Of a stretch of 64,000 bases of DNA, positions 14,378 through 49,332 are shown piece after piece. Each line of letters opens with the position of its first letter. Within the stretch, counting starts at the first letter, position 1. Below the pieces are notes generated by a model that saw only the letters and a list, made by a program, of their open reading frames with translations, was not told the origin of the DNA and made no database searches. A program made the position numbers and the translations under genes. Where the stretch lies: contig NZ_KI421517.1 in assembly GCF_000473365.1 (NCBI RefSeq), positions 3,800,634-3,864,633 on the forward strand. Reading direction: 5' to 3'. Source of the stretch: Adhaeribacter aquaticus DSM 16391 (GTDB taxonomy: Bacteria > Bacteroidota > Bacteroidia > Cytophagales > Hymenobacteraceae).

Positions 14378-14822
14378 CTGTTACGTTATTTTTTAGTTAA
14401 ACCCTTTCTACCTGATCTGGTAATTTGATTTTCCCATTTTAAATCAGTTATTTTTTTATTCCTAAAAGGTGGAAACTAGGATGAGAAATGCTTTTTACTG
14501 CTTATTGGGTACTAAGCCGTTTACTTATTTGTAGTAATATTTTATAAACACAGGTTGGTTTGATTTTAAATAAGTTCCTGGCACCGACTTGTTAAAAAAT
14601 TTATATAGGTTCACCTGCCTTTTTATAAAGTTGCTACGTTCAAGGTTCCTGAATTAAATTTGTCTGTACTTTTTACTAGATGAAATATAGGTTTTTTACA
14701 TCCAGAATTTCTGGAACCTAAGGTTTTAAAAATTATGGAAATTATAGGATAAAACTGCTGGAAACTAATTAAATTTATTTATGAGGCTTAGCTCCAAGTC
14801 TTGTTTACCATTTAGTCATTGT
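14378..14822. other. intergenic region with promoter candidate
   Basis: This AT-rich spacer separates the kinase from the T9SS protein gene. The only feature I can support is the promoter candidate at 14631-14662. Confidence 0.4.
14631..14662 (+). promoter_or_regulatory. Bacteroidota-type promoter candidate
   Basis: A TTG at 14631-14633 and TAAATTTG at 14655-14662 match the -33 and -7 (TAnnTTTG) elements with a 21-base spacer. It would give a leader of about 150 bases before the secreted protein gene. Confidence 0.4.
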
Positions 14823-17000
14823 ATGAAGCAGTTTTTACTTTCTTTGTTGCTGCTATTCTGGTGTTTATCTGCTTCCGCCACGCACATTGTGGGCGGTGAA
14901 TTACAACTAAAATACTTGGCTGGGTCCAATTATCAAATTACATTAAATATGTATTTTGATAATATGAATGGTAATCGGGACGCAATTGATCCTACTATAT
15001 TTGTCTCAATTTTTGAAAAAGGTACGAATATCCGGATAACCAATATTACTATGAGAAATCCCCAGGAGTCGCCGGTGCCATATACCTTTTTAGCCTGTAC
15101 CAGTGGCTCCTTGAGTACTAATAAAATAGTATATACTCAAAATGTTACCTTGTCCGAATCCATCTATACTAGTCCGAATGGCTATTACATGGTTTGGGAG
15201 CGGTGTTGCCGGAATGGCGTAATCAGTAATATTGAAAACCCGGGCGTAGCCGGTCAAGCTTTTTACCTGGAGTTTCCCGCGGTCTCCAGAAATGGCCAGG
15301 TTTTTCGTAACTCTTCCCCCGAATTATTTGCGCCGGTAAGTGATTATGCCTGCTTAAATGAGTTGTTTTATTATAATTTTGGAGGTACCGATCCGGATGG
15401 AGATTCATTGGTATATGAAATGGTCACGCCCCTGAACGGATGGAGTAGTATGAATAATGCTGCACCGGTAGCTTTACCGGCACCTTACGCTCCCGTTCGG
15501 TGGATATCCGGAATAGGATTAAATAACCAAATTCCTGGAAATCCTGCCATTTCTATAACGCCTCAAGGTGGTTTTTTGTCGGTCAGGCCCAGCCAATTAG
15601 GCTTGTTTGTTTTTGGAGTTAAGTGTTCGGAATACCGTAATAAAGTTAAAATAGGGGAGGTAAGGCGCGATTTCCAGATTTTAGTTTTAAACTGTCCGAA
15701 GAACAATAAACCTGCTGTTAATGTAAAAGCACCCGGTGCTAAAACGTTTTACCAGGAAGGCCAGGTAATTAAGATTGGTACTGCAGATAACCGTTGCCTG
15801 AACTTATTTTTATCAGATACAGATATCGATGAAAATTTGACCATTGAAGCCAAACCTGTAAATTTTGCCAGCACTGAAAAATTATTAAATATTACTTTCG
15901 GAATGGTAAACCGGCATGGAAGGATAGATTCTTTAAAAACCTCAGTTTGTTTTAGTCCTTGCCTGGACTCCAAAGGAGAGGTTTATTATATAGATTTTAT
16001 CCTATCGGATGATGGCTGCAGCCTGCCTAAAAAAGATACCATTCAGGTGGCATTCCTGATAGAGCCAGTGATGGATGCCCCACCAACTATTTCTACCTCG
16101 GCGGGTACCATGGTGTTTAAACCCCGAATGGGTGAAACCTTATCCTTTGAGGTAACCGGGTTAGACTCTGACAATGACCTGGTAAGTTTAAGTTTGTTGG
16201 GACAAAACTTTAATGTAGCCAGCCAAAACATTAAATTTCCGGCAGCTTCCAATCCCGGACGAGCCACCAGCCAATTCACCTGGCCTATAGATTGCAAGGC
16301 CTTAAATCAGAGTTCTTACTTATTAGAATTTAAAGCTACTACCATTGTTTGCGACAAAGTAGTAATAGCTACTACCACCATTGAAGTAATACCTGATTAT
16401 GCAAACCAAAGCCCAACCATTACCGCTGATTTGGCCAACCGCACTTATGAAATTTTATTTGGGGCTGATTTTTCGGATAGTATATTTTCGGCAGATCCTG
16501 ATTTAGATCTGATAAGGTTAACAGCCTCGGGCGATGGCTTTAATTTAGCTGATTATGGGATGGTTTTCAAGGCTGTGTCGGGAAAAGGAAAAGCTAATTC
16601 ATTATTTTCCTGGTCGCCGGATTGTAGCATTAAAAATAAAAATGAATTTAAAGTAAATTTTATGGTGGCAGAAGAAACTTGTAAACCTTTCCCGCCGCAA
16701 ACCATTTCCGTTACTTTTAAGGTATTTAATGAAACGCCGGCCACTTTTGTTCCCGCCAACATTTTTACCCCCAACAATGACGGACTGAATGATTTTTTTG
16801 AGATGCCAACATTGCCGCCAAATTTTTGTGAAAGTGTTTTCTCTGATATAAAAGTCTTTAATCGATGGGGCCAATTAGTGTTTAAAAGCAATGACCGCCA
16901 GTTTAAATGGGATGGCAACAATGTAGGCGATGGCATTTATTATTATATTGTTGCTTTTTCCGATAAAGAATTTAAAGGTACTGTTACCAAAGTAAGATAA
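14823..17000 (+). CDS. secreted T9SS cargo protein with type B sorting domain
   Basis: From the ATG at 14823 the product is 725 residues. I prefer this start to the ATG at 14781 because it places a classic signal peptide (KQFLLSLLLLFWCLSASA) at the very N-terminus. The C-terminal 80 residues are a gliding-motility-type (CHU_C, type B) sorting domain: VPANIFTPNNDGLNDFF, then VFNRWGQLVF and WDGNNVGDGIYYYIV. The protein should therefore cross the inner membrane by Sec and the outer membrane by the type IX system. The middle contains repeated beta-sandwich-like modules with DPDGDSLVYE, DSDNDLVSLSL and DPDLDLIRLTA motifs, suggesting calcium-binding adhesin-like repeats. It has no catalytic motif. 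An adhesion or surface role is inferred. Confidence 0.88.
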   Translation: MKQFLLSLLLLFWCLSASATHIVGGELQLKYLAGSNYQITLNMYFDNMNGNRDAIDPTIFVSIFEKGTNIRITNITMRNPQESPVPYTFLACTSGSLSTNKIVYTQNVTLSESIYTSPNGYYMVWERCCRNGVISNIENPGVAGQAFYLEFPAVSRNGQVFRNSSPELFAPVSDYACLNELFYYNFGGTDPDGDSLVYEMVTPLNGWSSMNNAAPVALPAPYAPVRWISGIGLNNQIPGNPAISITPQGGFLSVRPSQLGLFVFGVKCSEYRNKVKIGEVRRDFQILVLNCPKNNKPAVNVKAPGAKTFYQEGQVIKIGTADNRCLNLFLSDTDIDENLTIEAKPVNFASTEKLLNITFGMVNRHGRIDSLKTSVCFSPCLDSKGEVYYIDFILSDDGCSLPKKDTIQVAFLIEPVMDAPPTISTSAGTMVFKPRMGETLSFEVTGLDSDNDLVSLSLLGQNFNVASQNIKFPAASNPGRATSQFTWPIDCKALNQSSYLLEFKATTIVCDKVVIATTTIEVIPDYANQSPTITADLANRTYEILFGADFSDSIFSADPDLDLIRLTASGDGFNLADYGMVFKAVSGKGKANSLFSWSPDCSIKNKNEFKVNFMVAEETCKPFPPQTISVTFKVFNETPATFVPANIFTPNNDGLNDFFEMPTLPPNFCESVFSDIKVFNRWGQLVFKSNDRQFKWDGNNVGDGIYYYIVAFSDKEFKGTVTKVR

Positions 17001-17560
17001 ATTTTCTGAGGTATTTTCCGAGATTATTTTTATATCCGGCAAGGCCAATAAGGCCAGCTATAAAAGTAATTAGGCTTTTGAAGTTGTTTATGTTGGCCAG
17101 AGAATACATTTACAAAAGGGTATTTTATTTTACCAATTAAATATTCATTGGTCTCTTCTAAAGATAAATCTGGTGTTGCAAGCAGGAGTAACTGGGGCTG
17201 AAACACTTTTTAAATAAAAAATATGTTTCAGTTTAATCTCCTGGCCTTATTAAAATAAACCTCATTCTGCCAGCTAATTAAGATTGTGTACATCGGGCAT
17301 TACAAATAAAATAACAATTTTTACTTACCCAGGCAACGGGGGCTTAACAGGCCAGCGTATTATTTAGTATAGGTCGAAGCCCAAAAAAATATTATTTTAA
17401 TTCCATGAGGCAACGTAGCCCGCAAAAGCGGGCGTAATGGTTATATAAGGATTCAGTATTACACCAATGAACAGAGATATTGCTTATGAATTAATTTTTA
17501 CCAGTATGGCCGGCCTGATACTTTAATTATAACTATTCCTTTAAAACCAAAACAAAATTT
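17001..17560. other. intergenic region with a GC-rich hairpin
   Basis: No gene is visible in this 560-base spacer. A perfect hairpin GCCCGC-AAAA-GCGGGC at 17418-17433 stands out from the AT-rich surroundings and may be part of a dispersed repeat, but no second copy is in this window. Confidence 0.4.
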
Positions 17561-34851: not shown

Positions 34852-35571
34852 TTGGAAACGTTTACGCCACATACCCTTACCAATAGAAATGCCCTTATAT
34901 CCGGAGGTCACTCCGGCATCGGATTAGCTGTTGCTGCTAAATTGCAGGCAGCAGGTGCCCAGGCAGCCGTAGCCGATATTTCTTCCCCCAATCATTTACC
35001 TGTTGGCATAACTTCTTTTTCCTGCGACATCACCAATGCTGCCCAAATAGATAATCTCTATGGGGAAGTTAATGCGCATTTTGGTCACCCGGATATTTTA
35101 ATTTCTAATGCCGGACAAGGCATTCATGAAAAACTGACAGAAGGTGATCCGGCTAAATGGCAAAAAGTAATTGAACTAAATTTGCTGGGTGCTTTGCGAT
35201 TAATCAGGGCTTTTGTACCGGGTATGTTGGCTGCCGGTTCGGGCGATGTTGTTTTTATTTCATCAGTTTCAGCGGGCCAGGCTTACCCCTACGGCGGTAT
35301 TTATGCGGCTACCAAATCCGCGTTGCAAACAGTAGCCGAAACCTTACGCCTGGAGGTTTTACCAACCTTACGGGTAATTACCATTGCTCCGGGTGTAACC
35401 GATACGGCCTTTTTTAAAAATACCATTTCGGGTTTTCATACAGCAGACGATATTGGCTATGGTGCTTTGGCACCCGAAACAGTAGCTGATGCGGTGCTTT
35501 ATGCGCTCATGCAGCCGCCGGAGGTTTCGGTTAACCATATAACCGTTAGGCCAACCCTCCAACCTTTTTAA
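34852..35571 (+). CDS. short-chain dehydrogenase/reductase
   Basis: This 239-residue classical SDR has the cofactor motif SGGHSGIGLAVA at 17-28, the NAG motif (LISNAGQG), a catalytic Ser in FISSVSAGQ and the catalytic Tyr-x3-Lys in YAATK. It should be a cytoplasmic NAD(P)-dependent oxidoreductase. The frame lacks an ATG; a stop at 34825 limits it upstream and TTG at 34852 is the best start. It is followed 28 bases later by a sugar epimerase gene and is probably the first gene of the cluster. Confidence 0.82.
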   Translation: METFTPHTLTNRNALISGGHSGIGLAVAAKLQAAGAQAAVADISSPNHLPVGITSFSCDITNAAQIDNLYGEVNAHFGHPDILISNAGQGIHEKLTEGDPAKWQKVIELNLLGALRLIRAFVPGMLAAGSGDVVFISSVSAGQAYPYGGIYAATKSALQTVAETLRLEVLPTLRVITIAPGVTDTAFFKNTISGFHTADDIGYGALAPETVADAVLYALMQPPEVSVNHITVRPTLQPF

Positions 35572-35599: not shown

Positions 35600-36718
35600 A
35601 TGAAGAAGAAAGTATTGATTACAGGCGGTGCCGGTTTCATTGGCTCCCATCTGGCAGATGAGTTGCTTAATTTTGGTTATGAAGTAAGAGCGCTGGACAA
35701 CTTGTCGGAACAGGTACACGGCAAAAACTGTAAGCGGCCAGACTACCTGCATCCTGATGTTGAATTGCAAATCGGGGATGTTCGGGATAAAGAAGCGGTG
35801 CTAAAAGCTTTAGAAGGAGTAGATGCTGTTTTTCACCTGGCCGCCATGGTAGGAGTAGGGCAGAGCATGTATGAAATCCGCGAGTATACCGATGTAAACA
35901 ATACCGGAACGGCTGTTCTGTTAGAATGTTTATCCCAAAAACCAGTAGAAAAACTGGTAGTTGCTTCCAGCATGAGTATTTACGGCGAAGGGCTTTATCA
36001 AAATAAAACCGGGAAATTAGTAACCGCTTTCGAAAGACCTTTAGAACAACTAAAAGCCGGTTTATGGGAAGTAATGGACTCAAATGGGCAGGAGTTAACA
36101 CCGATTCCTACACCGGAATCTAAAACACCTTGTTTGTCTTCGGTATATGCCCTTTCTAAGTACGATCAGGAACGAATGAGTTTGATTGTTGGCCGGGCGT
36201 ATAATATCCCAACGGTAGCCATGCGCTTCTTTAATGTTTATGGTACCCGCCAGGCTTTATCTAACCCTTATACCGGGGTATTAGCCATTTTTGCTTCCCG
36301 TTTCCTGAATGAAAATCCGCCTATGATTTTTGAAGATGGCCAGCAGCAACGCGATTTTGTGCATGTACGCGATGTCGCTTTAGCTTGCCGCCTGGCTTTG
36401 GAAACACCGGAAGCTGCCGGTCAGGTATTTAATGTGGGCAGCGGAAATAACTACACGATCTCAGAAATTGCGGAGCGTCTGGCGGCAGTAATGGGAAAAG
36501 AACATTTACAAGCCCAAATAACAGGTAAATACCGGGTAGGAGATATCCGCCATTGTTATTCAGATATTTCTTTGGCCAATGAAGTATTGGGCTTTTATCC
36601 GCAGGTAGATTTTAATAGTGGTTTGTTAGAGTTGGCGGAGTGGTTAGAAGGTCAAATAGCCTATGACCGGGTAAATGAAGCCAGCGCCGAATTAGCCTCC
36701 CGGGGGTTGACTGTTTAA
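35600..36718 (+). CDS. nucleotide-sugar epimerase, extended SDR
   Basis: This 372-residue protein is an extended SDR sugar epimerase. The NAD motif is TGGAGFIGSHL at 8-18, the catalytic Ser region is VASSMSIYGEG, and the Tyr-x3-Lys occurs in SSVYALSKYDQE near residue 191. The long middle insertion (about 125-185) and the segment FNVYGTRQALSNPYTGVLAIF resemble the dTDP-L-rhamnose 4-epimerase/WbiB group rather than GalE. It should interconvert a nucleotide-activated sugar for the downstream glycosyltransferases. The precise sugar is inferred only. Confidence 0.83.
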   Translation: MKKKVLITGGAGFIGSHLADELLNFGYEVRALDNLSEQVHGKNCKRPDYLHPDVELQIGDVRDKEAVLKALEGVDAVFHLAAMVGVGQSMYEIREYTDVNNTGTAVLLECLSQKPVEKLVVASSMSIYGEGLYQNKTGKLVTAFERPLEQLKAGLWEVMDSNGQELTPIPTPESKTPCLSSVYALSKYDQERMSLIVGRAYNIPTVAMRFFNVYGTRQALSNPYTGVLAIFASRFLNENPPMIFEDGQQQRDFVHVRDVALACRLALETPEAAGQVFNVGSGNNYTISEIAERLAAVMGKEHLQAQITGKYRVGDIRHCYSDISLANEVLGFYPQVDFNSGLLELAEWLEGQIAYDRVNEASAELASRGLTV

Positions 36719-36758: not shown

Positions 36759-38822
36759 ATGTTAAAAAATACGAATTTAATAGTGGAAAAAGAAAAGACT
36801 GCCCATCCGGTTATAGGTATGGTAGAGTGGTTCCGTCCCGGCGAATATGAGCACGTAGAGAAAGTACTGGCTGAACTGAATGAACTAGGAGTGACCGAAC
36901 TCCGGACGGGTATTTCCTGGGCCGATTATTATACTCCGGCGGGTAAGGATTGGTATGATTGGCTAATTCCGCGTCTGGCAAAAGAAGTTAACCTGTTGCC
37001 TTGCTTTTTATATACCCCTCCATCGTTGGGGTTAGCACCGCGTACCTCCTCGCCGCCAGCTACACCAAAAGCATTTGCCGATTTTCTGGATATAATTATT
37101 ACGGACCTGGGCGAACATTTTGAGTGGGTGGAGCTTTGGAACGAGCCCAATAATAAACTGGAGTACGATTATACGTTAGACAAATCCTGGTTCCGGTTTG
37201 CCGAAATGGTGGGTGGGGCGGCCTATTGGGCGAAACAGCGGGGTAAAAAAACTGCTTTAGGTGGAATGAGCCCTATTGATCCGAACTGGCTGCAACTGAT
37301 GTTTGACCGGGGAGTAATGCAATACATAGATGCCGTTGGTATTCATGGTTTCCCGGATGTCTTTGACCAGTTATGGGAAGGCTGGGAAGAAAATGTTGCA
37401 AAAGTACAGGACGTGCTGGTGCAAAATAATTCGGCTGCTCAGATCTGGATTACAGAAGCCGGGTTCTCTACCTGGCAACACGATGAGTATAAACAATTAC
37501 AGGAATTTCGGAATATTCTAAAAGCGGATGTGGCTAAGGTTTATTGGTACAGCATGCACGATCTGGATCCGGAACTTTCAACAGTTGGCGGCTTTCATGT
37601 AGACGACCGGGAATATTATTTTGGCTTAAAGCGCACCGATGGCACTCCTAAATTATTGTACCGCCTGTGGGCAGAAAATGGAATAGAAGGTTTAAGTAAG
37701 CTAACCTGTATTAAACGGAAAACAGATTTTAAAACCGAAGAAAAATATAGCTTAATCACAGGTGGGGCCGGGTTTGTAGGAACCAATTTAGCCAAACGGT
37801 TACTGGAAGAAGGCAAACGCGTCCTAATTCTGGATAATTTATCCCGTAATGGCGTGGAGCGCAATCTGCAATGGCTGCACGATAATTACGAAGAACGGCT
37901 GGAAATACATGTGGCTGATATCCGGGATTTGCAAACCGTAAAACGCCTGATGAAAGGAGCAAACCAGGTATTTCATTTTGCAGCCCAGGTAGCGGTTACC
38001 ACCTCCCTTGATTTTCCTATCAATGATTTTGAAATTAATGCCCGTGGTATTATAAATGTGCTAGAGGCCATTCGGACCATGGATAATCCGCCGCCACTGG
38101 TGTTTACTTCTACCAATAAAGTATATGGGGGGCTGGAAGATTTATTGTTCATTGCGGACGGTTCCCGGTACAATCCCTCCGATAAGGCAATCCTGAAACA
38201 TGGCATTAGTGAAGCGCGTCCCCTTGACTTTCATAGCCCGTATGGATGCTCCAAAGGAGCCGCCGACCAGTATGTGGTTGACTATGCCCGCACGTATGGT
38301 ATTCCGGCGGTAGTTTTCCGGATGAGCTGCATTTACGGACCGCACCAGTATGGCAATGAAGACCAGGGTTGGGTAGCCCACTTTGCTATTCGCGCCATTG
38401 AAAATAACCCAATCAGTATTTACGGTGATGGCAAACAGGTGCGGGATGTACTTTTTGTGGAAGACCTGGTAGATGCGTTTTTGCTTGCTCAGAAACATAT
38501 GCCAAAAATTTCAGGTCAGGCCTTTAACATTGGCGGAGGACCAGAAAATACGACCAGTTTACTTGAGTTACTGGAACTAATTGGTGAGTTTCAGGGCCAG
38601 AAAATTCCGCTCAAGTTTGGCGATTGGCGCCCCGGTGACCAGCACTATTACGTGTCTGATATCCGCAAATTTAAAAAAGCCACTGGCTGGTTTCCTAAGC
38701 ATTCGGTTCAGGAAGGCGTAGCCAAGTTATATAAGTGGCTATGCGAAACCCGTGGCATAGAAGTGCCGGCCGATTTTGCTTTACTCGAAGAAAAAGTTGA
38801 TCCTAAAGTAGTTGTAGCCTAA
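36759..38822 (+). CDS. fusion: GH-A TIM barrel plus CDP-paratose-2-epimerase-like SDR
   Basis: This 687-residue protein joins two unrelated enzymes in one frame. Residues about 15-310 form a clan GH-A TIM barrel with a candidate acid/base E129 in ELWNEPNN and a candidate nucleophile E233 in WITEAGFST. Residues about 330-680 form an extended SDR with TGGAGFVGTNL at 334-344 and the catalytic Y495-x3-K499 in SPYGCSKGAADQY, resembling CDP-paratose (tyvelose) 2-epimerases. The linker at about 310-330 is short and Lys-rich. There is no signal peptide. The next gene's ATG overlaps its stop (TAATG). The fusion physically couples glycoside cleavage or binding with nucleotide-sugar epimerisation; its real substrate is unknown. 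Confidence 0.85.
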   Translation: MLKNTNLIVEKEKTAHPVIGMVEWFRPGEYEHVEKVLAELNELGVTELRTGISWADYYTPAGKDWYDWLIPRLAKEVNLLPCFLYTPPSLGLAPRTSSPPATPKAFADFLDIIITDLGEHFEWVELWNEPNNKLEYDYTLDKSWFRFAEMVGGAAYWAKQRGKKTALGGMSPIDPNWLQLMFDRGVMQYIDAVGIHGFPDVFDQLWEGWEENVAKVQDVLVQNNSAAQIWITEAGFSTWQHDEYKQLQEFRNILKADVAKVYWYSMHDLDPELSTVGGFHVDDREYYFGLKRTDGTPKLLYRLWAENGIEGLSKLTCIKRKTDFKTEEKYSLITGGAGFVGTNLAKRLLEEGKRVLILDNLSRNGVERNLQWLHDNYEERLEIHVADIRDLQTVKRLMKGANQVFHFAAQVAVTTSLDFPINDFEINARGIINVLEAIRTMDNPPPLVFTSTNKVYGGLEDLLFIADGSRYNPSDKAILKHGISEARPLDFHSPYGCSKGAADQYVVDYARTYGIPAVVFRMSCIYGPHQYGNEDQGWVAHFAIRAIENNPISIYGDGKQVRDVLFVEDLVDAFLLAQKHMPKISGQAFNIGGGPENTTSLLELLELIGEFQGQKIPLKFGDWRPGDQHYYVSDIRKFKKATGWFPKHSVQEGVAKLYKWLCETRGIEVPADFALLEEKVDPKVVVA

Positions 38823-39829
38823 TGAATTCTGAATTAGTAGATTTACCTGAATTAACAGAAACAAAAGTTGGCACCATGCGGGCCGCCGTAATAGCGGCTC
38901 CGCAAACAGTAGAAATAACCGATGTAACTTTACCTGAACCTGGGCCAACCCAGGTGCGGATAAAAATGGAAGGTTGCGGTCTATGTGCTTCTAATATCCC
39001 GGTTTGGCAGGGGCGGGAGTGGTTTTCATACCCAATAGCTGCCGGTAATCCGGGCCACGAAGGCTGGGGTATAGTAGATGCTATTGGCGAAGAAGTAACT
39101 TCCGTACAGGTAGGGGAGCGGGTAGCTGCCATAACCTATAATGCCTATGCCCAATACGATGTGGCGGAAGCCGACTCTTTGATAAAATTACCCGAAAGTT
39201 TGGCGGGTGTGCCTTTCCCGGGCGAGCCTTTGGGTTGTGCCATCAATATTTTTAAACGTTCTGATATTAAAGCCGGGCATACCGTCGCCATCCTTGGGAT
39301 TGGGTTTTTAGGAGCATTATTGGTACAGTTGGCTAAACAGGCCGGAGCCAAAGTTATTGCGTTATCACAGCGGGATTTCTCTTTAACTATAGCCGAGGAA
39401 TGCGGGGCAGACGAATTAATCAAACTCGACGACCATTGGCAAATTATTGAAAAAGTTAAAAACCTGACCAATGGTAAATTTTGTGAACGGGTAATTGAAT
39501 GTACCGGGAAAGAATGGCCTTTAAACCTTTCGGGTGAATTAACCGCTGAACGGGGAAAACTAATTATAGCCGGTTTCCATCAGGATGGCATGCGGTCTAT
39601 TAATGTGCAGCTCTGGAACTGGCGGGGCCTTGATGTAATAAATGCGCACGAACGGGATCCTAAAATATACCTCGAAGGTATGCAGGAAGCTGTGGAGGCC
39701 GTGGAAGCAGGAAGAATAAACCCTCAGCCACTTTACACGCACACTTTTGCCCTGGAGAATATAGAAGAGGCTTTCCAAATGTTACAAGACCGTCCGGATG
39801 GTTTTATGAAAGCTTTGATAACGTTCTAA
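38822..39829 (+). CDS. zinc-dependent alcohol dehydrogenase, MDR family
   Basis: This 335-residue medium-chain dehydrogenase has the catalytic zinc site (C52 in GCGLCASN, H79-E80 in GNPGHEGWG) and a Rossmann domain with AILGIGFLGALLVQLA. It lacks the four-cysteine lobe that binds structural zinc in classical alcohol dehydrogenases: after VAAITYNAYAQYDVAE the chain moves straight on. It should oxidise a sugar or polyol hydroxyl using NAD(P). Its start overlaps the fusion gene's stop, indicating translational coupling. About 155 bases separate it from the next gene, where a weak hairpin (CCCT/AGGG) is followed by T residues. Confidence 0.85.
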   Translation: MNSELVDLPELTETKVGTMRAAVIAAPQTVEITDVTLPEPGPTQVRIKMEGCGLCASNIPVWQGREWFSYPIAAGNPGHEGWGIVDAIGEEVTSVQVGERVAAITYNAYAQYDVAEADSLIKLPESLAGVPFPGEPLGCAINIFKRSDIKAGHTVAILGIGFLGALLVQLAKQAGAKVIALSQRDFSLTIAEECGADELIKLDDHWQIIEKVKNLTNGKFCERVIECTGKEWPLNLSGELTAERGKLIIAGFHQDGMRSINVQLWNWRGLDVINAHERDPKIYLEGMQEAVEAVEAGRINPQPLYTHTFALENIEEAFQMLQDRPDGFMKALITF

Positions 39830-39985: not shown

Positions 39986-41026
39986 ATGCAAACAGATTTA
40001 GTACTAGATAAAAACACCACGCTTTCAGAAAACACTCCAATTCAACTTCCCAGGCTTGGCTTCCTGGGTGTAGGCTGGATTGGCCGTAACCGAATGGAAG
40101 TAATTGCTCATAACCAGGCCGGCAAAGTAGTTTATATTGCCGACCCAGTTCAGGTTAATTCAGAAGAAGCCTTAAAAACCGCGGATAATGCTATCGTTGT
40201 TAATGATTTGAAGGAAATGCTTACTGGCGATGTAGACGGCATCGTGATAGCTACGCCCAGTGCCTTACACGCGGAGCAAACCATTGCGGCCTTAGAAGCT
40301 GGGAAAGCGGTATTTTGCCAAAAGCCCTTAGGCCGGAATAAAGAAGAAACCAAACGTGTAGTAGAAGCAGCCCGGGAAGCAGATAAATTATTAGGCGTTG
40401 ATTTATCGTATCGCTACACAAAAGCCATGCAGGAAGTGTACCGGGTAGTGCAATCTGGCGAACTAGGCGAAATTTATGGAGTAGAGTTAACTTTCCATAA
40501 TGCCTATGGTCCCGACAAACCCTGGTTTTATGACCCTAAATTATCAGGCGGTGGGTGTGTAATTGATCTGGGCGTGCATTTAGTGGATCTGGCTTTGTGG
40601 TGCTTAAATTTTCCGGAAGTAGAAAAAGTTACTAGTAGTTTATTCAGTAAAGGCAAACGCATCACCGCTACCGATGTAATAGTGGAAGACTATGCAAATT
40701 CCAGCATAAACTTACAAACCGGTACCCATGTGCAGTTAACCTGTTCCTGGAATTTGCCAGCCGGGCAGGAAGCCATCATCAGTGCGGTATTTTACGGTAC
40801 CAACGGCGGTGTTGCCTTCAAAAATACGAATGGTTCTTTTTATGATTTTGTGGCCGAACGATATTATGGTACCCAAACCCATACTATGTGCTTTCCACCC
40901 GACGATTGGTCGGGCCGGGCCGGGGTAGCTTGGGCGAACCGCCTGGCGGCCGGTGAAACATTTAGTCCGGAAGCCGAAGAATTTGTAAAAGTGGCCGAGG
41001 TGCTGGATAGAATTTACGGTAAATAA
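39986..41026 (+). CDS. Gfo/Idh/MocA family dehydrogenase, cytoplasmic
   Basis: This 346-residue protein has the N-terminal Rossmann motif GFLGVGWIGRNR at about 26-37, the catalytic-domain hallmark CQKPLG near 114, and the C-terminal segment GGGCVIDLGVHLVDLALW. Unlike the relative at 6.5-7.7 kb it has no Tat signal and should work in the cytoplasm. It probably oxidises or reduces a sugar or nucleotide sugar, working with the neighbouring MDR enzyme. The next gene starts 3 bases after its stop. Confidence 0.87.
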   Translation: MQTDLVLDKNTTLSENTPIQLPRLGFLGVGWIGRNRMEVIAHNQAGKVVYIADPVQVNSEEALKTADNAIVVNDLKEMLTGDVDGIVIATPSALHAEQTIAALEAGKAVFCQKPLGRNKEETKRVVEAAREADKLLGVDLSYRYTKAMQEVYRVVQSGELGEIYGVELTFHNAYGPDKPWFYDPKLSGGGCVIDLGVHLVDLALWCLNFPEVEKVTSSLFSKGKRITATDVIVEDYANSSINLQTGTHVQLTCSWNLPAGQEAIISAVFYGTNGGVAFKNTNGSFYDFVAERYYGTQTHTMCFPPDDWSGRAGVAWANRLAAGETFSPEAEEFVKVAEVLDRIYGK

Positions 41027-41029
41027 TTC

Positions 41030-42127
41030 ATGGCGCAGGACGGGAAACCGCTAAAGATTTTAATGACAGCCGATACCATTGGAGGTGTCTGGACGTATTC
41101 GCTTGAGCTCTTGGCGGCCTTGGGAGCGGAAAATATAGAGGTGGCTCTGGCTACCATGGGTGCACCTTTATCTGTTTTTCAGCAGGAACAGGTTAAAGAG
41201 TTGCCTTTTGTTCAGGTTTACGAAAGCAACTTTAAGCTGGAATGGATGGAAAATCCCTGGACAGATGTGGAGGCTGCCGGCCAATGGCTACTGGATATAA
41301 AAAATGAATTTAATCCGGATGTAATTCACCTGAATAATTTTCCGCATGGCAACCTGAACTGGGGAAAGCCAGTGGTAATGGTGGTGCACTCCTGTGTAAA
41401 ATCGTGGTGGCAGGCCGTAAAAAATGAACCGGCTCCCGAAAGTTGGAATACCTACCAGGAAAAAGTTGGGGAAGGCTTACGGGCTGCTGACCTGGTGGTG
41501 GCTCCGTCTAAGGCTATGCTGGCGGAAGCAGTTGCCTTATATGGCCCTTTTAAAAAGCAACGGGTAATTTACAATGGGCGCAATACCGATAATTTCCGCT
41601 ATGGCAAAAAAGAACCTTTTGTTTTTAGTATGGGCCGTATCTGGGACGAAGCAAAAAACATTCAGGCCTTAGCCGAGGTAGCCGCCTCATTAAGCTGGCC
41701 GGTATATGTGGCCGGGGAGACTGCTCACCCAGATTCAGGAAAAGATCTTCCGTTCCGGAATATTCGTTTTTTAGGAAAGCTTAACGAAGTTGAAATTAAA
41801 GAATACCTCAGTAGAGCATCTATTTTTGCTTTACCGGCCAAATACGAACCTTTTGGATTATCGGCTTTAGAAGCCGCTAATTCTGGATGTGCGTTGGTCT
41901 TGGGTAAAATTCCGAGCCAGCAGGAAATATGGGAACAGGCAGCTACTTATGTAAACCCAAATAATCCGGATGAGCTAAAAACCAGCCTGAATAATCTGAT
42001 AGAGGATGAATTTATCCGCAATATTATGAGCTTCCGGGCTATACAGCGGGGACTGAAATACAGCGGAAAACAAAAGGCTTTTGAATACTACCGGGTATAT
42101 CACCAGCTAATTTCTGAAAGAGAGTAG
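41030..42127 (+). CDS. GT4-like glycosyltransferase
   Basis: This 365-residue GT-B glycosyltransferase has an N-terminal acceptor domain beginning KILMTADTIGGVWTYSLELL and a C-terminal donor domain with the E-x7-E motif (E273 in YEPFGLSALE to E281). The family transfers a sugar from a nucleotide-activated donor with retention. It is soluble with no membrane segment. It lies 3 bases after the Gfo/Idh gene and 32 bases before the first CgeB-like gene, so it is part of the same unit. Confidence 0.87.
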   Translation: MAQDGKPLKILMTADTIGGVWTYSLELLAALGAENIEVALATMGAPLSVFQQEQVKELPFVQVYESNFKLEWMENPWTDVEAAGQWLLDIKNEFNPDVIHLNNFPHGNLNWGKPVVMVVHSCVKSWWQAVKNEPAPESWNTYQEKVGEGLRAADLVVAPSKAMLAEAVALYGPFKKQRVIYNGRNTDNFRYGKKEPFVFSMGRIWDEAKNIQALAEVAASLSWPVYVAGETAHPDSGKDLPFRNIRFLGKLNEVEIKEYLSRASIFALPAKYEPFGLSALEAANSGCALVLGKIPSQQEIWEQAATYVNPNNPDELKTSLNNLIEDEFIRNIMSFRAIQRGLKYSGKQKAFEYYRVYHQLISERE

Positions 42128-42159: not shown

Positions 42160-43296
42160 ATGAAACTAGTGTTATTTTACCATTCCCTGCTTTCAGACTG
42201 GAATCATGGAAATGCGCATTTTTTGCGGGGTATTGTTCAGGAGTTAAAAGTTCGTGGGCACGATGTGCAGGTATATGAACCAGAAAATGGGTGGAGCCTG
42301 CAAAACCTGGTGGGTGAATACGGTGAAGAAAAGCTGGAAGAACTAAAGAAATACTATCCTGGCCTGAAAACCAATTTTTATAATCTGGAAACGCTGGATT
42401 TAGATGCCGTTTTAAATGAGGCCGACTTGGTGCTGGTGCACGAATGGAATGATCATGAGTTGGTAAGAAGAGTAGGGGTACACCGGACCAGGAGTAAATA
42501 CAAACTGCTTTTTCATGATACGCACCACCGTGCGGTAACAGAAAAAGGAAGCATGGCTGCCTACGATTTAAGTAATTACGATGGGGTGCTGGCTTTTGGC
42601 GAAGTAATTAAAAATATCTATTTAAAAGAAAATTGGACAAAAAAAGCCTGGACCTGGCACGAAGCAGCTGATGATTACGTGTTTTACCCGCGAACCAAAA
42701 CCGAAGATGCTGGTGACCTGGTTTGGATTGGCAACTGGGGCGATGAAGAGCGCACCGCTGAGTTGCATGAGTTCCTGATAAACCCGGTTAAAGAATTAGG
42801 TTTAAAAGCTAAAATCTATGGGGTTCGGTATCCGGAACATGCCCTGAAATCTCTGGCTGATGCCGGCATTGAATATGGTGGCTGGCTACCAAATTACAAA
42901 GCACCAGAAGTTTTTGCCAATTACAAAGTCACCGTACATGTGCCTCGCCGGCCATATGTAGAAGCCCTGCCGGGAATCCCAACTATTCGTCCGTTTGAGG
43001 CTCTTAGTTGTGGCATACCACTTATTTCGGCTCCCTGGGAAGATGCCGAAAATTTGTTCAGACCGGGTCATGATTTCTTAGTAGTCCACAATGGCGAGGA
43101 AATGAAAAAACATTTACAGTCTGTGCTGCACGATAAAAAAATCGCTCAAAATTTAGCTTCCTGTGGTTTAAAAGCTATTAATCGTCATCATACCTGCGCC
43201 CACCGGATAAGCCAGTTAGAAAAAATTTGTGAGCAATTAGGTATTGCCCCGGCTAAAATTTATGTAGATACAAATGAAGATATATTCTATGCATAA
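42160..43296 (+). CDS. CgeB-like glycosyltransferase 1
   Basis: This 378-residue protein is a GT-B-fold glycosyltransferase related to the CgeB/DUF3880 group. The N-terminus LVLFYHSLLSDWNHGNAHFLRGIVQEL matches the equivalent region of the next two genes. The C-terminal donor-binding part has IPTIRPFEALSCGIPLISAPW, the usual Glu-containing loop. It has a histidine-rich HDTHHRAV segment near residue 120. It is the most divergent of the three tandem paralogues. CgeB-type proteins decorate spores or polysaccharides in other bacteria; the acceptor here is unknown. Confidence 0.82.
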   Translation: MKLVLFYHSLLSDWNHGNAHFLRGIVQELKVRGHDVQVYEPENGWSLQNLVGEYGEEKLEELKKYYPGLKTNFYNLETLDLDAVLNEADLVLVHEWNDHELVRRVGVHRTRSKYKLLFHDTHHRAVTEKGSMAAYDLSNYDGVLAFGEVIKNIYLKENWTKKAWTWHEAADDYVFYPRTKTEDAGDLVWIGNWGDEERTAELHEFLINPVKELGLKAKIYGVRYPEHALKSLADAGIEYGGWLPNYKAPEVFANYKVTVHVPRRPYVEALPGIPTIRPFEALSCGIPLISAPWEDAENLFRPGHDFLVVHNGEEMKKHLQSVLHDKKIAQNLASCGLKAINRHHTCAHRISQLEKICEQLGIAPAKIYVDTNEDIFYA

Positions 43297-44398
43297 TAAA
43301 AGAAAATTAAAAATAGCTTTCTTTGGTTCCAGCCTGGTTTCTGCTTACTGGAATGGCGCAGCTACTTATTACCGGGGAATAATACGGGCCTTGCACGGAC
43401 GCGGGCATCAGGTAACTTTTTATGAACCGGATGCCTACCAGCGGCAGGAAAACCGCGACATGGCCGATCCGGACTGGGCTAAAGTAGTGGTTTATCCGGC
43501 TACGGAAGAAGCCGTTTTTAAAGTACTGGAAGAAGCAACTGAGGCCGATATTGTGGTAAAAGCCAGTGGCGTTGGCGTTTTTGATGAATTGCTGGAAGCG
43601 GAAGTTTTGAAATTACAAACTAAAGAGCGGATGGTTGTTTTCTGGGATGTGGATGCGCCAGCAACCTTAGACCGAGTGCATCATAATCCTCAGGACCCAT
43701 TCCTGCAACACATTCCGCAGTACGATATGGTGTTGACCTACGGCGGCGGGGAACCTGTTATTCAGGCTTATGAAGCATTAGGAGCGAAAAAATGTGTGCC
43801 TATTTATAATGCCTTAGATACATCTACTCATTTTCCGGTAGCGGCAAATCCTGACTTTGCCTGCGACTTAGCCTTTTTGGGAAACAGATTACCAGATCGG
43901 GAGGCCAGAGTAGAGCATTTCTTTTTAGACGTGGCCGTACAGTTGCCGGATCAGCAATTTATAATAGGAGGTAGCGGTTGGGGCGATAAACCCATGAGCT
44001 CCAATGTAAAATACATTGGGCACGTTTATACTAAAGACCATAATGCTTTTAATTGTACACCCAAAGCGGTACTTAATATCAGCCGGGAAAGCATGGCCCG
44101 CTACGGTTTTTCGCCCGCAACCCGGGTATTTGAAGCCGCCGGTGCCGCTTCGTGTATTATTACCGATTACTGGGAAGGTATAGATTTTTTCTTTGAGCCA
44201 GATACAGAAATTTTGGTGGCTAAAAGTGGGGCAGAAGTGGCGCAGATTGTAGCCAGTTTAACTGACGAAAAAGCCAAGGCCATTGGTCAGGCTGCTTATA
44301 AAAAAGTTTTATCAGCTCATACTTATAACCACCGGGCTGATCAGCTGGAAACGCTCTTGTATAATAAAATAACAAACAAAACTGAGGAGTTAGTATGA
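43289..44398 (+). CDS. CgeB-like glycosyltransferase 2
   Basis: From the ATG at 43289 the product is 369 residues and overlaps the previous stop by 8 bases; I prefer it to the ATG at 43274 because the family motif KLKIAFFGSSLVSAYWNGAA follows directly. It shows the same N-terminal pattern (WNGAATYYRGIIRALHGRGH) and the donor-site block GFSPATRVFEAAGAASCIITDYW. It is a GT-B enzyme of the CgeB type, and shares higher similarity with the third copy than with the first. Its stop overlaps the next start (ATGA). Confidence 0.83.
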   Translation: MHNKRKLKIAFFGSSLVSAYWNGAATYYRGIIRALHGRGHQVTFYEPDAYQRQENRDMADPDWAKVVVYPATEEAVFKVLEEATEADIVVKASGVGVFDELLEAEVLKLQTKERMVVFWDVDAPATLDRVHHNPQDPFLQHIPQYDMVLTYGGGEPVIQAYEALGAKKCVPIYNALDTSTHFPVAANPDFACDLAFLGNRLPDREARVEHFFLDVAVQLPDQQFIIGGSGWGDKPMSSNVKYIGHVYTKDHNAFNCTPKAVLNISRESMARYGFSPATRVFEAAGAASCIITDYWEGIDFFFEPDTEILVAKSGAEVAQIVASLTDEKAKAIGQAAYKKVLSAHTYNHRADQLETLLYNKITNKTEELV

Positions 44399-45486
44399 AG
44401 CAGGAATCATTAAAGGTTGTTATTATAGGATTATCGATTACATCGTCTTGGGGTAATGGGCATGCTACTACTTTCCGGGGATTGGTTCGGGAATTAGCAG
44501 CGCGCGGACATGAGGTACTGTTTCTGGAACGGGATGTGCCTTGGTATGCTTCTAACCGCGATTTGCCTAATCCGAAATATTGCAAAACGGAACTGTATAT
44601 TTCTTTAGATGATTTAAAGGTCCGATTTACCGAGCAGGTACGGGAAGCGGATTTAGTAATTGTTGGCTCTTATGTGCCGGAAGGAGTGCTGGTAGGGCAA
44701 TGGGTGATTAATACCGCGCAAGGCATAAAAGCATTCTACGACATAGATACACCCGTTACGTTAGCTAAGCTGGAGCGGGAAGATTTTGAATACCTTCATC
44801 CAAACCTGATTCCGCAATACGATTTATATTTATCTTTTACCGGTGGACCAACCCTGGAGGTATTAGAGCAGAAGTATGGGTCGCCGAAAGCAAAGCCGTT
44901 GTATTGTTCTTTTGATCCGGAATTATACTTTCCGGAACAACAGGAAATGCAATGGGGTTTAGGCTATTTAGGTACTTACAGCGATGACCGTCAGCCCCCC
45001 CTGGAAAAATTGATGCTGGATGCGGCCCGCCAATGGCCGGAAGGTAAATTTGTGGTGGCTGGCCCGCAGTATCCGGCTTCGGTGCAATGGCCAGCAAATA
45101 CACAGTACATTTCGCATTTGCCGCCCGCCGAGCACCGGAAGTTTTACAACAGCCAGCGCTTTACGCAAAACATTACCCGGGCTGATATGATTAAAGCCGG
45201 CTATTCGCCAAGTGTGCGGCTGTTTGAAGCGGCAGCCTGTGGCATCCCCATAATCAGCGATTACTGGGACGGCTTAGATTCCGTTTTTGATTTTGATTCC
45301 GAAATATTAGTAGCCTATTCAGCTAAAGATACGTTGTCTTTCCTAAAAGATATTCCCGAGGCTGATCGGAAAGCTATAGGAGAGCGGGCAAGGCAGAAAG
45401 TACTGAATGGGCACACAGCCGCTCATCGGGCGCGGGAGGTAGAGCAATATGTGCGGGAACTGTCCGGTGCCTTAAAAACTGTCTAA
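44395..45486 (+). CDS. CgeB-like glycosyltransferase 3
   Basis: This 363-residue protein overlaps the previous gene by 4 bases. It has the N-terminal SWGNGHATTFRGLVRELAARGH segment and the C-terminal GYSPSVRLFEAAACGIPIISDYW block, aligned with copy 2. The three tandem copies look like an internal duplication with divergence, which would supply three linkages or successive transfers on one acceptor. About 113 bases with a perfect 12-base palindrome separate it from the methyltransferase gene. Confidence 0.83.
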   Translation: MKQESLKVVIIGLSITSSWGNGHATTFRGLVRELAARGHEVLFLERDVPWYASNRDLPNPKYCKTELYISLDDLKVRFTEQVREADLVIVGSYVPEGVLVGQWVINTAQGIKAFYDIDTPVTLAKLEREDFEYLHPNLIPQYDLYLSFTGGPTLEVLEQKYGSPKAKPLYCSFDPELYFPEQQEMQWGLGYLGTYSDDRQPPLEKLMLDAARQWPEGKFVVAGPQYPASVQWPANTQYISHLPPAEHRKFYNSQRFTQNITRADMIKAGYSPSVRLFEAAACGIPIISDYWDGLDSVFDFDSEILVAYSAKDTLSFLKDIPEADRKAIGERARQKVLNGHTAAHRAREVEQYVRELSGALKTV

Positions 45487-45599: not shown

Positions 45600-46421
45600 A
45601 TGACTACTTCAATACAGCAGGAAATTGAAAACTTAGGTCCCTGGTTCCATAATATTCATTTGCCTGATGGTACCCAAACGGCACCTAAACATGCTTTTGG
45701 TGATTTCCCAGCTTTTAAGTGGAGAGAAATAGAACCCAATATTCCTGCTGATTTAAACGGATGGAATGTTTTGGATATTGGTTGCAATGCCGGCTTTTAT
45801 ACCATTGAACTTGCCAAGCGAGGTGCACAGGTTTTAGCCATTGATGTAGATCCGCATTACCTGAAACAGGCTGCCTGGGTAGCCGACCAATTTGGCTTTA
45901 CCGACCAGATTGAATTCCGCCACATGCAGGTATACGATGTGGCACGCCTGGACCAGAATTTTGATCTCATCTGGTACATGGGCGTTTTGTATCATTTACG
46001 ATATCCTTTATTATCGCTGGATATTTTAAGCCAAAAGCTTAAGCGGATGATGATTTTTCAGACGTTAACCCTGCCTGGTGAAGCAGTGGCAGAAGTGCCG
46101 GAAGATTTACCTATCAACGGGCGGGAAAAAATGCAGCAGGATGGCTGGCCGAAAATGGCCTTTATTGAACACCGCTTAGCCGGGGATATTACAAATTGGT
46201 GGGCGCCTAATCATGCTGGTATTGAAGCAATGCTTCGTTCTTGCGGTTTTAAAATTAAAAGCAGACCAGGTCACGAAATTTATATCTGCGAACCTGATGC
46301 TGAAAACCCAACTCAGTTGCACAGCTGGAATAGCTCGGAGTATTTATCGGCAACCGGGCAAAACTGGGAAGAAGCGGTAAAAGCTAAAGTAGCAGATAAA
46401 AATCGTACACTCACTTCATAA
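45600..46421 (+). CDS. SAM-dependent methyltransferase, glycosyltransferase-cluster type
   Basis: This 273-residue class I methyltransferase has motif I VLDIGCNAG at 57-65, motif II-like VLAIDVDPHYLKQA and the LIWYMGVLYHLRYPLLSL segment seen in CmoB-like proteins. The N-terminal LGPWFHNIHLPDGTQTAP and GDFPAFKWREIEP match, from memory, the TIGR04290 (Rta_06860) methyltransferases that occur in glycosyltransferase/epimerase clusters. That assignment needs a profile search. It probably O-methylates a sugar of the cluster product. It is soluble. Confidence 0.8.
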   Translation: MTTSIQQEIENLGPWFHNIHLPDGTQTAPKHAFGDFPAFKWREIEPNIPADLNGWNVLDIGCNAGFYTIELAKRGAQVLAIDVDPHYLKQAAWVADQFGFTDQIEFRHMQVYDVARLDQNFDLIWYMGVLYHLRYPLLSLDILSQKLKRMMIFQTLTLPGEAVAEVPEDLPINGREKMQQDGWPKMAFIEHRLAGDITNWWAPNHAGIEAMLRSCGFKIKSRPGHEIYICEPDAENPTQLHSWNSSEYLSATGQNWEEAVKAKVADKNRTLTS

Positions 46422-47925: not shown

Positions 47926-49332
47926 ATGGGAATGCCCTGGATCCAGGTAGCTCCTGGAGCCCCTTATTTTATAACTGAAGAAGGCAATGCCTGGACGCCA
48001 ATTGGGCAGAATGATGCCATTACCTGGCCTGATTTTGCCGGATTATTCCGGCGAAAAGATATGGCAGCTGTGGAAGGTCATTTGGCTTATCTGGTAGAGC
48101 ACGGAGTTACCGTATTACGGTTTATGCTGGAGTATGCTCAAACGGAAAACCGTTATTTTGAAAAACCAGCTGGTAAATTTCAGCCTAACATGATTAAGCT
48201 CTGGGATGATCTTTTTGCTTTGTGTGAGAAATATGGGCTGCGTATTTTATTGACCCCATATGATACATTCTGGATGTGGATCCGGTGGAACCATCATCCT
48301 TATAACCAAGCCAATGGCGGGCCCTGCCGGAAGCGCTCACAATGGTTGCTTTGCCCGGAAACCCTAAAAATTATCAAAAACCGGTTAAGCTTTGTAGCAG
48401 AACGTTGGGGAAGCAGTGGTGCTTTATTTGCCTGGGACTTATGGAATGAAATTCACCCGGCCCATGCCGAAAACAATCCTGAAGTTTTTAATGAGTTTGT
48501 AGTAGAATTAAGTACCCACTTACGGGAAGTAGAATTGCGGTTGTATGGCCGGACCCATTTGCAAACAGTTTCTCTTTTTGGTCCGGTTTTATATGAGCAT
48601 CCTATTGTGGCCGACGTTATTTTCCGGCATCCGCAACTCGATTTTGCCACCACCCATTTTTACGATGCTAAAACCATTAACCATCCCAAAAATACAGTAG
48701 CTTCGGCCATTTGTACCGGAGCATTAATTCGGGAGGCTCTGGAGCATTTACACCAGCCTAAGCCTTTTTTTGACAGCGAGCACGGTCCTATACATGCTTT
48801 TAAAGATTTACATAAAACCTTGCCTGCGCCTTTTGATGATGAATATTTCCGGCATATACAATGGGCCCACTTTGCTTCGGGTGGGGCAGGAGGTGGTATG
48901 CGTTGGCCTAACCGGCATCCGCACGTTTTAACTTACGGCATGCGCGAAGCCCAAAAAAACTTAAATAAATTTCTTCCTTTACTTAGCTGGTCCTTTTTTA
49001 AAAGAAAAAATTTAAACCACGAAATCAAAATTTCTTCGCCGGCTCTTTCTGGTTTTGCCTGTGGCGACGAACACCAGGCTTTAGTCTGGCTTTTAAGGAA
49101 AGATAAAATTGAAAAAAATGGTTTAGTGTCTAAAGTCGCAGAACCGGTTGGCTTTACTATTTCCATACCAGGTTTAACCAGTAGCAGGTACCTTATTTCT
49201 TATTTTGATACAATATCGGGTATGGTAATTCACACGGAAGAAGTAGAAAAAAGAGGAGTTGAGGAACTCGCCCTTACGCCGCCTCCTATAGTGGCTGATA
49301 TGGCTATAGCTATAAGAGGAGATAAAGTATAA
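47926..49332 (+). CDS. GH5-like cellulase-fold hydrolase, cytoplasmic
   Basis: This 468-residue protein is a GH-A clan TIM barrel. Candidate catalytic residues are E175 in WDLWNEIHP and E285 in FFDSEHGPI. A short beta domain (about 375-468) follows the barrel. There is no signal peptide, which is unusual for a cellulase-like enzyme and suggests an intracellular substrate, perhaps the cluster's product or an intermediate. The frame starts at ATG 47926. A strong terminator 26 bases after the stop marks the end of the block. Confidence 0.8.
   Translation: MGMPWIQVAPGAPYFITEEGNAWTPIGQNDAITWPDFAGLFRRKDMAAVEGHLAYLVEHGVTVLRFMLEYAQTENRYFEKPAGKFQPNMIKLWDDLFALCEKYGLRILLTPYDTFWMWIRWNHHPYNQANGGPCRKRSQWLLCPETLKIIKNRLSFVAERWGSSGALFAWDLWNEIHPAHAENNPEVFNEFVVELSTHLREVELRLYGRTHLQTVSLFGPVLYEHPIVADVIFRHPQLDFATTHFYDAKTINHPKNTVASAICTGALIREALEHLHQPKPFFDSEHGPIHAFKDLHKTLPAPFDDEYFRHIQWAHFASGGAGGGMRWPNRHPHVLTYGMREAQKNLNKFLPLLSWSFFKRKNLNHEIKISSPALSGFACGDEHQALVWLLRKDKIEKNGLVSKVAEPVGFTISIPGLTSSRYLISYFDTISGMVIHTEEVEKRGVEELALTPPPIVADMAIAIRGDKV

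Follow-up and report, generated by a model that had tools for sequence, protein, structure and literature searches.

A PslG-like barrel fused to a TyvE-like epimerase in a putative glycan-biosynthesis cluster, and its standalone, circularly permuted relative

Introduction

Why biosynthesis clusters encode glycosidases is described as an open question in the literature (PMC9075953). A gene of Adhaeribacter aquaticus DSM 16391 raises this question within one polypeptide. In the window, the whole stretch of 64,000 nucleotides analysed here (contig NZ_KI421517.1, positions 3,800,634 to 3,864,633), a single frame appeared to join a glycoside-hydrolase-like barrel to a nucleotide-sugar epimerase. 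The original prediction, made from the sequence, proposed that the barrel either cleaves a glycoside to feed the epimerase or acts as a binding or transferase module in synthesis. Is such a chain real, what are its two halves, and what might a sugar-cutting enzyme contribute to a pathway that builds? Among the matches listed for open-licence PubMed Central papers, we found nothing on a barrel-epimerase fusion, nor on a permuted barrel of the type described below or its context on pSymB of Sinorhizobium meliloti.

Results

Barrel and epimerase share one frame

In the window translation, the 687-residue protein is encoded by one unbroken plus-strand frame that runs from the ATG at 36759 to the stop codon at 38822, and the opposite strand carries many stops across the gene (Table 1). 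A (beta/alpha)8 barrel is followed by a short linker and a TyvE-like SDR domain. AlphaFold2 modelled the full chain with a mean pLDDT of 87.0 and a pTM of 0.83, using an alignment of 29 fusions of which the other 28 are 40-62% identical to the window protein. When the organism's own genome was searched with the fusion, the fusion alone covered the barrel; the other 13 matches lay in the epimerase half.

The same architecture recurs elsewhere. A tblastn search of plasmids returned 52 records in which 80% or more of the query is found at a single place, and the 40 best, at 47.8-52.6% identity, come from Rhizobium, Allorhizobium, Agrobacterium, Paracoccus and Xanthomonas. Genome contigs were scanned with the barrel alignment, by means of peptide patterns that represent the N-terminal third of the unpermuted barrel and are thus ill-suited to permuted copies; this yielded 121 relatives. 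We kept the best 80 of these 121, and barrel and SDR lie in one frame in all 80; at one locus (L066) the frame breaks inside the SDR half, and some others end at contig ends. The single-frame fusion is therefore borne out, by the window's frame and by the kept loci alike. The latter belong to Flavobacterium, a Cytophagaceae, Geomonas, Citrifermentans, a Desulfobulbaceae and many Alphaproteobacteria, as well as to a Chloroflexi, a WS1 and a Nitrospira assembly. Within the window's own phylum, a search of 395 genomes with the barrel recovered only the genome itself and three weak matches, a sparseness which argues that the cluster is patchy and was probably transferred. None of 36 pattern matches in viral contigs encodes a relative.

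Two variants of the architecture were encountered. In genome G1115, a single frame of 1260 codons encodes SDR1, barrel and epimerase, SDR1 being followed by a long linker (L179:4158-7937, plus strand), and a second, unpermuted barrel lies downstream of the methyltransferase. In a Xanthomonas sacchari plasmid record (L013, about 14730-17087), the barrel occupies two frames.

Table 1. Features of the fusion gene and its neighbourhood in the window. Counts of relatives refer to 80 fused loci with 10-kb flanks, several of which are shortened by contig ends or the flank limit.
Feature	Coordinates	Strand	Basis or recurrence
Short-chain dehydrogenase SDR0, upstream	34852..35571	+	family match; relatives in 16/80 loci
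NAD-dependent epimerase/dehydratase SDR1, directly upstream of fusion	35600..36718	+	79/80 loci
Fusion gene, 687 aa, PslG-like barrel and TyvE-like SDR	36759..38822	+	ORF, sequence and structure matches
GH-A (beta/alpha)8 barrel, residues 17-314	36807..37700	+	strands in AlphaFold2 model; PslG ranked first by Foldseek
E129 codon, predicted acid/base (counterpart of PslG Glu165)	37143..37145	+	profile alignment
E233 codon, predicted nucleophile (counterpart of PslG Glu276)	37455..37457	+	profile alignment
TyvE-like SDR epimerase half, residues 329-665; T452, Y495, K499	37743..38753	+	family, PDB and structure matches
Zinc-type alcohol dehydrogenase	38822..39829	+	relative in 72/80 loci
Gfo/Idh/MocA oxidoreductase	39986..41026	+	relative in 67/80 loci
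GT4-type glycosyltransferase	41030..42127	+	relative in 77/80 loci
Glycosyltransferase a (PF13524)	42160..43296	+	relative in 76/80 loci
Glycosyltransferase b (PF13524)	43274..44398	+	relative in 77/80 loci
Glycosyltransferase c (PF13524)	44395..45486	+	relative in 74/80 loci
TIGR04290 family methyltransferase	45600..46421	+	350.1 bits against cut-off 300; relative in 57/80 loci

The N-terminal half is a GH-A barrel resembling PslG

Clan GH-A enzymes carry the acid/base after strand 4 and the nucleophile at strand 7, and the predicted barrel has precisely this arrangement. In an AlphaFold2 model of the barrel alone (mean pLDDT 91.5, pTM 0.90), eight strands follow in GH-A order, E129 stands after strand 4 (residues 123-126) and E233 is located at the end of strand 7 (228-234). 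Both glutamates that the original prediction had singled out, E129 in WNEPNN and E233 in WITEAG, were found at the positions given for them and occupy the catalytic positions of the model. Foldseek placed Pseudomonas PslG first (4zn2 at E 2.2e-16, then 5bx9 and 9g17; TM 0.76-0.77 on the query at 18% identity), followed by a GH30 xylanase at 5e-11. A barrel profile searched against PDB sequences likewise recovered PslG (E 1e-5), its WNEPN and IWSTE segments aligning with the two glutamates. These correspond to Glu165, the acid/base, and Glu276, the nucleophile, of PslG (PMC11912335, in excerpt), with a numbering offset of 26 that we counted ourselves.

Membership of a known Pfam or NCBIfam family was considered and rejected: Pfam has no family for residues 1-317 at E <= 10, nor does NCBIfam for residues 1-314 at E <= 1. 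Given the lack of a Pfam match, we call the barrel PslG-like and do not assign it to GH39. In a single-sequence search of PDB sequences, the barrel had a sole match at E 0.57, which we judged to be due to chance. A C-terminal accessory domain after the barrel is a known feature of GH39 and PslG. This domain is absent from the fusion, since in the model the last barrel helix (309-314) leads to the first SDR strand (330-334).

The C-terminal half is TyvE-like, with a glutamate in place of TaTyvE Tyr203

Residues 332-656 match NAD-dependent epimerase/dehydratase families. Among PDB sequences, the SDR half is most similar to CDP-tyvelose 2-epimerases (9rl0, E 1.5e-86; 1orr, E 3.8e-85), and 1orr is also its best structural match, at 45% identity. 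The enzyme from which 9rl0 derives, TaTyvE, has a Thr124-Tyr164-Lys168 triad and a TNK segment (PMC13098431, in excerpt); the corresponding residues of the window protein are T452, Y495 and K499, and T452-K454. Together with a glycine-rich GGAGF NAD motif, these features identify the half as TyvE-type, and the CDP-paratose-2-epimerase-like SDR with an intact Y495-x3-K499 was thus correctly foreseen. A DQG loop is also common to this half, TaTyvE and the Salmonella enzyme (1orr), and the motif EDQGW is present in all 30 epimerases that were read, the one at L204 included.

The SDR half departs from TaTyvE at one position. Tyr203 of TaTyvE closes over the cytosine of CDP (PMC13098431, in excerpt), whereas the window protein has Glu534 there. 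Of the 29 fusions in the alignment, 28 have Glu at this position and one, L022, has Leu. This replacement suggests that the base is probably not cytosine, and we do not assume the use of a CDP-sugar. The fusion to a barrel is a further difference from TaTyvE, and, of the 80 fused loci, 64 contain a relative of UDP-glucuronate decarboxylase. All 64 fall among the 70 loci from L026 on, L064 excepted, which are mostly alphaproteobacterial. Such relatives would fit the use of a UDP-sugar by the epimerase. The window cluster contains none, and the same genome has a 48% relative elsewhere.

The fusion is embedded in a cluster of putative glycan-building genes

The fusion is surrounded by oxidoreductases, four glycosyltransferases and a methyltransferase, all on the same strand (Table 1). 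The ATG of the zinc dehydrogenase overlaps the stop codon of the fusion by one base, and a 48% relative of SDR0 adjoins SDR1 in the Flavobacterium locus L017. The annotated clusters of X. sacchari, R. etli, Paracoccus and A. fabrum agree with that of the window. Genes further downstream are rarely shared: a DUF2254 relative occurs in two of the 80 fused loci, and a GH-like protein in none. The methyltransferase scores above the curated cut-off of TIGR04290, a family for which we found no mention in open-licence PubMed Central papers, which does not imply its absence from print. It is not invariably linked to the barrel: a relative was found in 57 of the 80 fused loci, some loci being cut at contig or flank ends.

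Among the ten window genes that were typed, we recognised no kinase or nucleotidyltransferase and no flippase, polymerase or export gene. On the latter ground we guess that the product may be an oligosaccharide that is soluble or linked to protein or lipid.

Several further genes were noted near the cluster or its relatives. The GH-like protein downstream in the window (47926-49332, plus strand; 468 aa) shows a WNE motif by eye, has no Pfam or NCBIfam match and lacks relatives in the 80 fused loci. A sulfotransferase-domain protein (PF00685; 33097-33993, plus strand) could modify the glycan. B12-binding radical SAM proteins occur at L177:14006-15298 (typed) and, by eye, at L110:6872-8218 and L025:11994-13331. 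Three genomes (G401, G533 and G1216) encode a protein with a radical-SAM-like cysteine motif between the epimerase and GT4 genes, the G1216 copy being typed as B12-binding; in the stretches examined, cluster-type relatives of the zinc dehydrogenase and of the Gfo/Idh/MocA enzyme were not found. A radical SAM protein in the place of these two enzymes might be a functional replacement. In Nitrospira, L097:5000-9436 holds genes for a nucleotidyltransferase, a methyltransferase, a permuted barrel and a PIG-L deacetylase, with a further glycosyltransferase by eye; this group is perhaps a second glycan module. On R. etli p42b, an annotated nucleotidyltransferase family protein (L014:10077-10883) lies about 0.8 kb from the Gfo/Idh/MocA gene.

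A standalone form of the barrel is circularly permuted

Whole-genome profile searches uncovered a second form of the barrel, in which approximately the final two thirds of the profile precede the first third within one open frame. The frame starts just before the WNEPNN strand, so that the GH-A barrel is cut before strand 4. Phylum-wide searches detected this form in 4 of 148 genomes (phylum of G401), 11 of 398 (G403), 4 of 151 (G399) and 2 of 198 (G396); class-wide searches that overlap them added 2 genomes (230 searched) and 12 (63 searched). The order was read from profile match positions in all 35 genomes, and for four of the barrels BLAST also gave two separate alignments in swapped order, at 32-37% identity. 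The set N-E-NN, H, E and Y is present in order in every one of the 35. A standalone, circularly permuted barrel with an intact catalytic set in 35 genomes is what is new here.

What are the neighbours of the permuted barrel? A relative of the cluster-type methyltransferase adjoins it in 20 of 21 loci, once as a weak 29% match, the only exception being G1017. The epimerase of these genomes is usually encoded by its own separate gene; where one stretch shows both, the two adjoin in only 2 of 7 loci (L175, L176). On S. meliloti pSymB, the permuted gene is annotated as beta-xylosidase in some records, and the record that we examined also contains a separate epimerase and the other cluster genes. 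We take this protein to be the permuted form of the window barrel, in a relative of the same cluster; it differs from the fusion in being circularly permuted and standalone with the epimerase separate, and its name reflects annotation, not an assay. A polysaccharide pyruvyl transferase is encoded near the permuted gene in this record.

In a tree of 20 fused, 18 permuted and 12 outgroup barrels, several of the outgroup branches being long, fused and permuted barrels separate into one clade each (96/99 and 100/99, respectively). The permuted set comprised 18 of the 21 then known, L140, L141 and L142 being left out. The simplest reading would be one fusion event and one permutation event.

Barrel and epimerase co-occur, and most eroded fused barrels are accompanied by intact ones

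Exactly one epimerase match at E <= 1e-60 was found in 30 of the 31 barrel-bearing genomes searched with the epimerase half; the remaining one, G1294, has a permuted barrel and no close epimerase. Thirteen of these 30 epimerases are fused to a barrel; the other 17 have frames that show no barrel similarity. On the epimerase tree, four to five changes between the fused and standalone states are required, and supported branches force three of them, which indicates that the two became coupled or uncoupled more than once.

Of 85 fused barrels, the window's own included, 81 retain all of seven pocket residues (N128, E129, N131, N132, H196, E233 and Y264). The four eroded ones (L025, L098, L159 and L160, from G401, G533, G1115 and G1216) are of different degrees: L098 and L159 keep E129 and E233 and have lost other positions, L025 has lost E233, and L160 both glutamates. 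Each of the four genomes has a second barrel that keeps all seven residues, permuted in three and unpermuted in G1115. Among the genomes searched whole, the fused barrel is eroded in 4 of 4 with a second barrel and in 1 of 12 without a detected one, where weak matches below 40 bits in G398 and G399 are not counted as second barrels; in other fused loci, second barrels were looked for in the flanks. The one is G1323, whose gene runs off the contig end and whose changes resemble those of G401. Fisher's test, which ignores kinship, gives p = 0.003 (0.0007 without G1323). In the barrel tree, all four eroded barrels fall into one group (87/80; three of them 98/90) and may thus represent only one or two independent events.

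The converse case is found in a Cytophagaceae assembly (L022:9418-11382, plus strand), where the barrel is intact and the SDR half has decayed, with Y495, K499 and DQGW lost. We found no spare close epimerase in this genome, relatives outside the fused gene having at most 37% identity, and L022 forms a very long branch in the epimerase tree.

Discussion

How might a glycosidase barrel serve a pathway that builds glycans? The explanation that we consider best, and hold with moderate confidence, is that the fusion is a two-enzyme chain in a glycan-biosynthesis cluster, with a PslG-like retaining barrel acting on the cluster's glycan. We envision that, in this patchily distributed cluster, the C-terminal half would act as an NAD-dependent sugar-nucleotide epimerase of the CDP-tyvelose 2-epimerase type, which probably inverts C2, probably not on a CDP-sugar, and would make one of the nucleotide sugars used. 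The four glycosyltransferases would build an oligosaccharide that the methyltransferase modifies, and the N-terminal half, a putative retaining glycosidase or transglycosidase in the cytoplasm, would trim, edit or transfer it. Catalysis by the barrel is suggested by the conservation of its pocket residues, and its action on the cluster's own glycan is presumed. Its cytoplasmic location is likewise suggested by the fusion to an SDR and by the lack, by eye, of an obvious signal peptide.

PslG, a GH39 enzyme of the Pseudomonas Psl operon and an endo-glycosidase (PMC11912335, in excerpt), is the nearest match by fold and by profile, and shares with the barrel both glutamates and a gene situated in a glycan-synthesis operon. 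Identity is 18%, and PslG is a separate protein of about 414 residues in the structure, most of it residing at the inner membrane and a part in the periplasm (PMC9075953, in excerpt), whereas the window barrel is fused to an SDR within a different cluster.

Alternatively, the barrel may be a transglycosidase in the strict sense, its retaining mechanism moving a glycosyl unit onto an acceptor, and so build rather than trim. The biosynthetic setting with four glycosyltransferases and often a methyltransferase speaks for this possibility, as does the catalytic set of retaining GH-A type; the nearest relative, PslG, is however an endo-glycosidase, and sequence features do not separate transfer from hydrolysis. 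We regard it as a somewhat unlikely but credible variant. The predicted transferase module in synthesis, or a processing module, may apply, and lies close to our preferred reading of a retaining barrel acting on the cluster's glycan.

It is less probable still, and in our opinion doubtful, that the barrel is catalytically unnecessary and serves as a carbohydrate-binding or structural module that places the epimerase on the glycan. The four eroded fusions do keep their barrel domain despite lost pocket residues, and some structural use of these copies is likely. Against such a role for the barrel at large, which was among those originally proposed, stands the retention of the seven residues in 81 of 85 fused and 35 of 35 permuted barrels, the four exceptions being accompanied by a second, intact barrel.

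A glycosidase releases a free sugar, and an epimerase needs a nucleotide sugar. This chemistry and the existence of the split form do not fit the other role first suggested, in which the barrel cleaves a glycoside to supply the substrate of the epimerase, and which we consider very unlikely. The shared chain, the co-occurrence of barrel and epimerase in 30 of 31 barrel-bearing genomes, and nucleotidyltransferases near some clusters (typed at L097, seen by eye at L110, annotated in R. etli) would agree with it. Yet the ten typed window genes include neither a kinase nor a nucleotidyltransferase, 17 of 30 epimerases have no barrel in frame, and the permuted barrel adjoins the epimerase in only 2 of the 7 loci where one stretch shows both. 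Finally, a sequencing error that joins two neighbouring genes, named beforehand as an outcome that would undo the prediction, has virtually no chance of explaining an architecture that all 80 kept loci share with 52 plasmid records.

Taken together, the original interpretation is partly supported: most likely the barrel is a cytoplasmic retaining glycosidase or transglycosidase of the pathway, and neither a binding module nor a feeder of the epimerase. More tentatively, and with somewhat less than even confidence, we propose that a patchily distributed glycan pathway, so far undescribed, depends on this activity as an obligatory step, secured either by fusion to the epimerase or by permutation and pairing with the methyltransferase, one active barrel being kept per pathway.

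Circular permutation is known in other glycoside hydrolases, such as GH13/GH70 and permuted GH3 enzymes, whose domain order is altered as in the present barrel. Unlike in those cases, it is a GH-A barrel that is cut here, before strand 4, and its unpermuted sister is fused to an epimerase. The family is a natural example of circular permutation in a GH-A barrel, and the fused, separated, permuted, duplicated and decayed copies of this one barrel within one recurrent cluster constitute natural experiments on the role of glycosidases in biosynthesis clusters. That the barrel is fused in some genomes and a separate, permuted partner in others suggests a sugar-cutting step within an undescribed glycan-building pathway, and could lead to a glycan, probably methylated and as yet uncharacterised, that rhizobia and other bacteria make.
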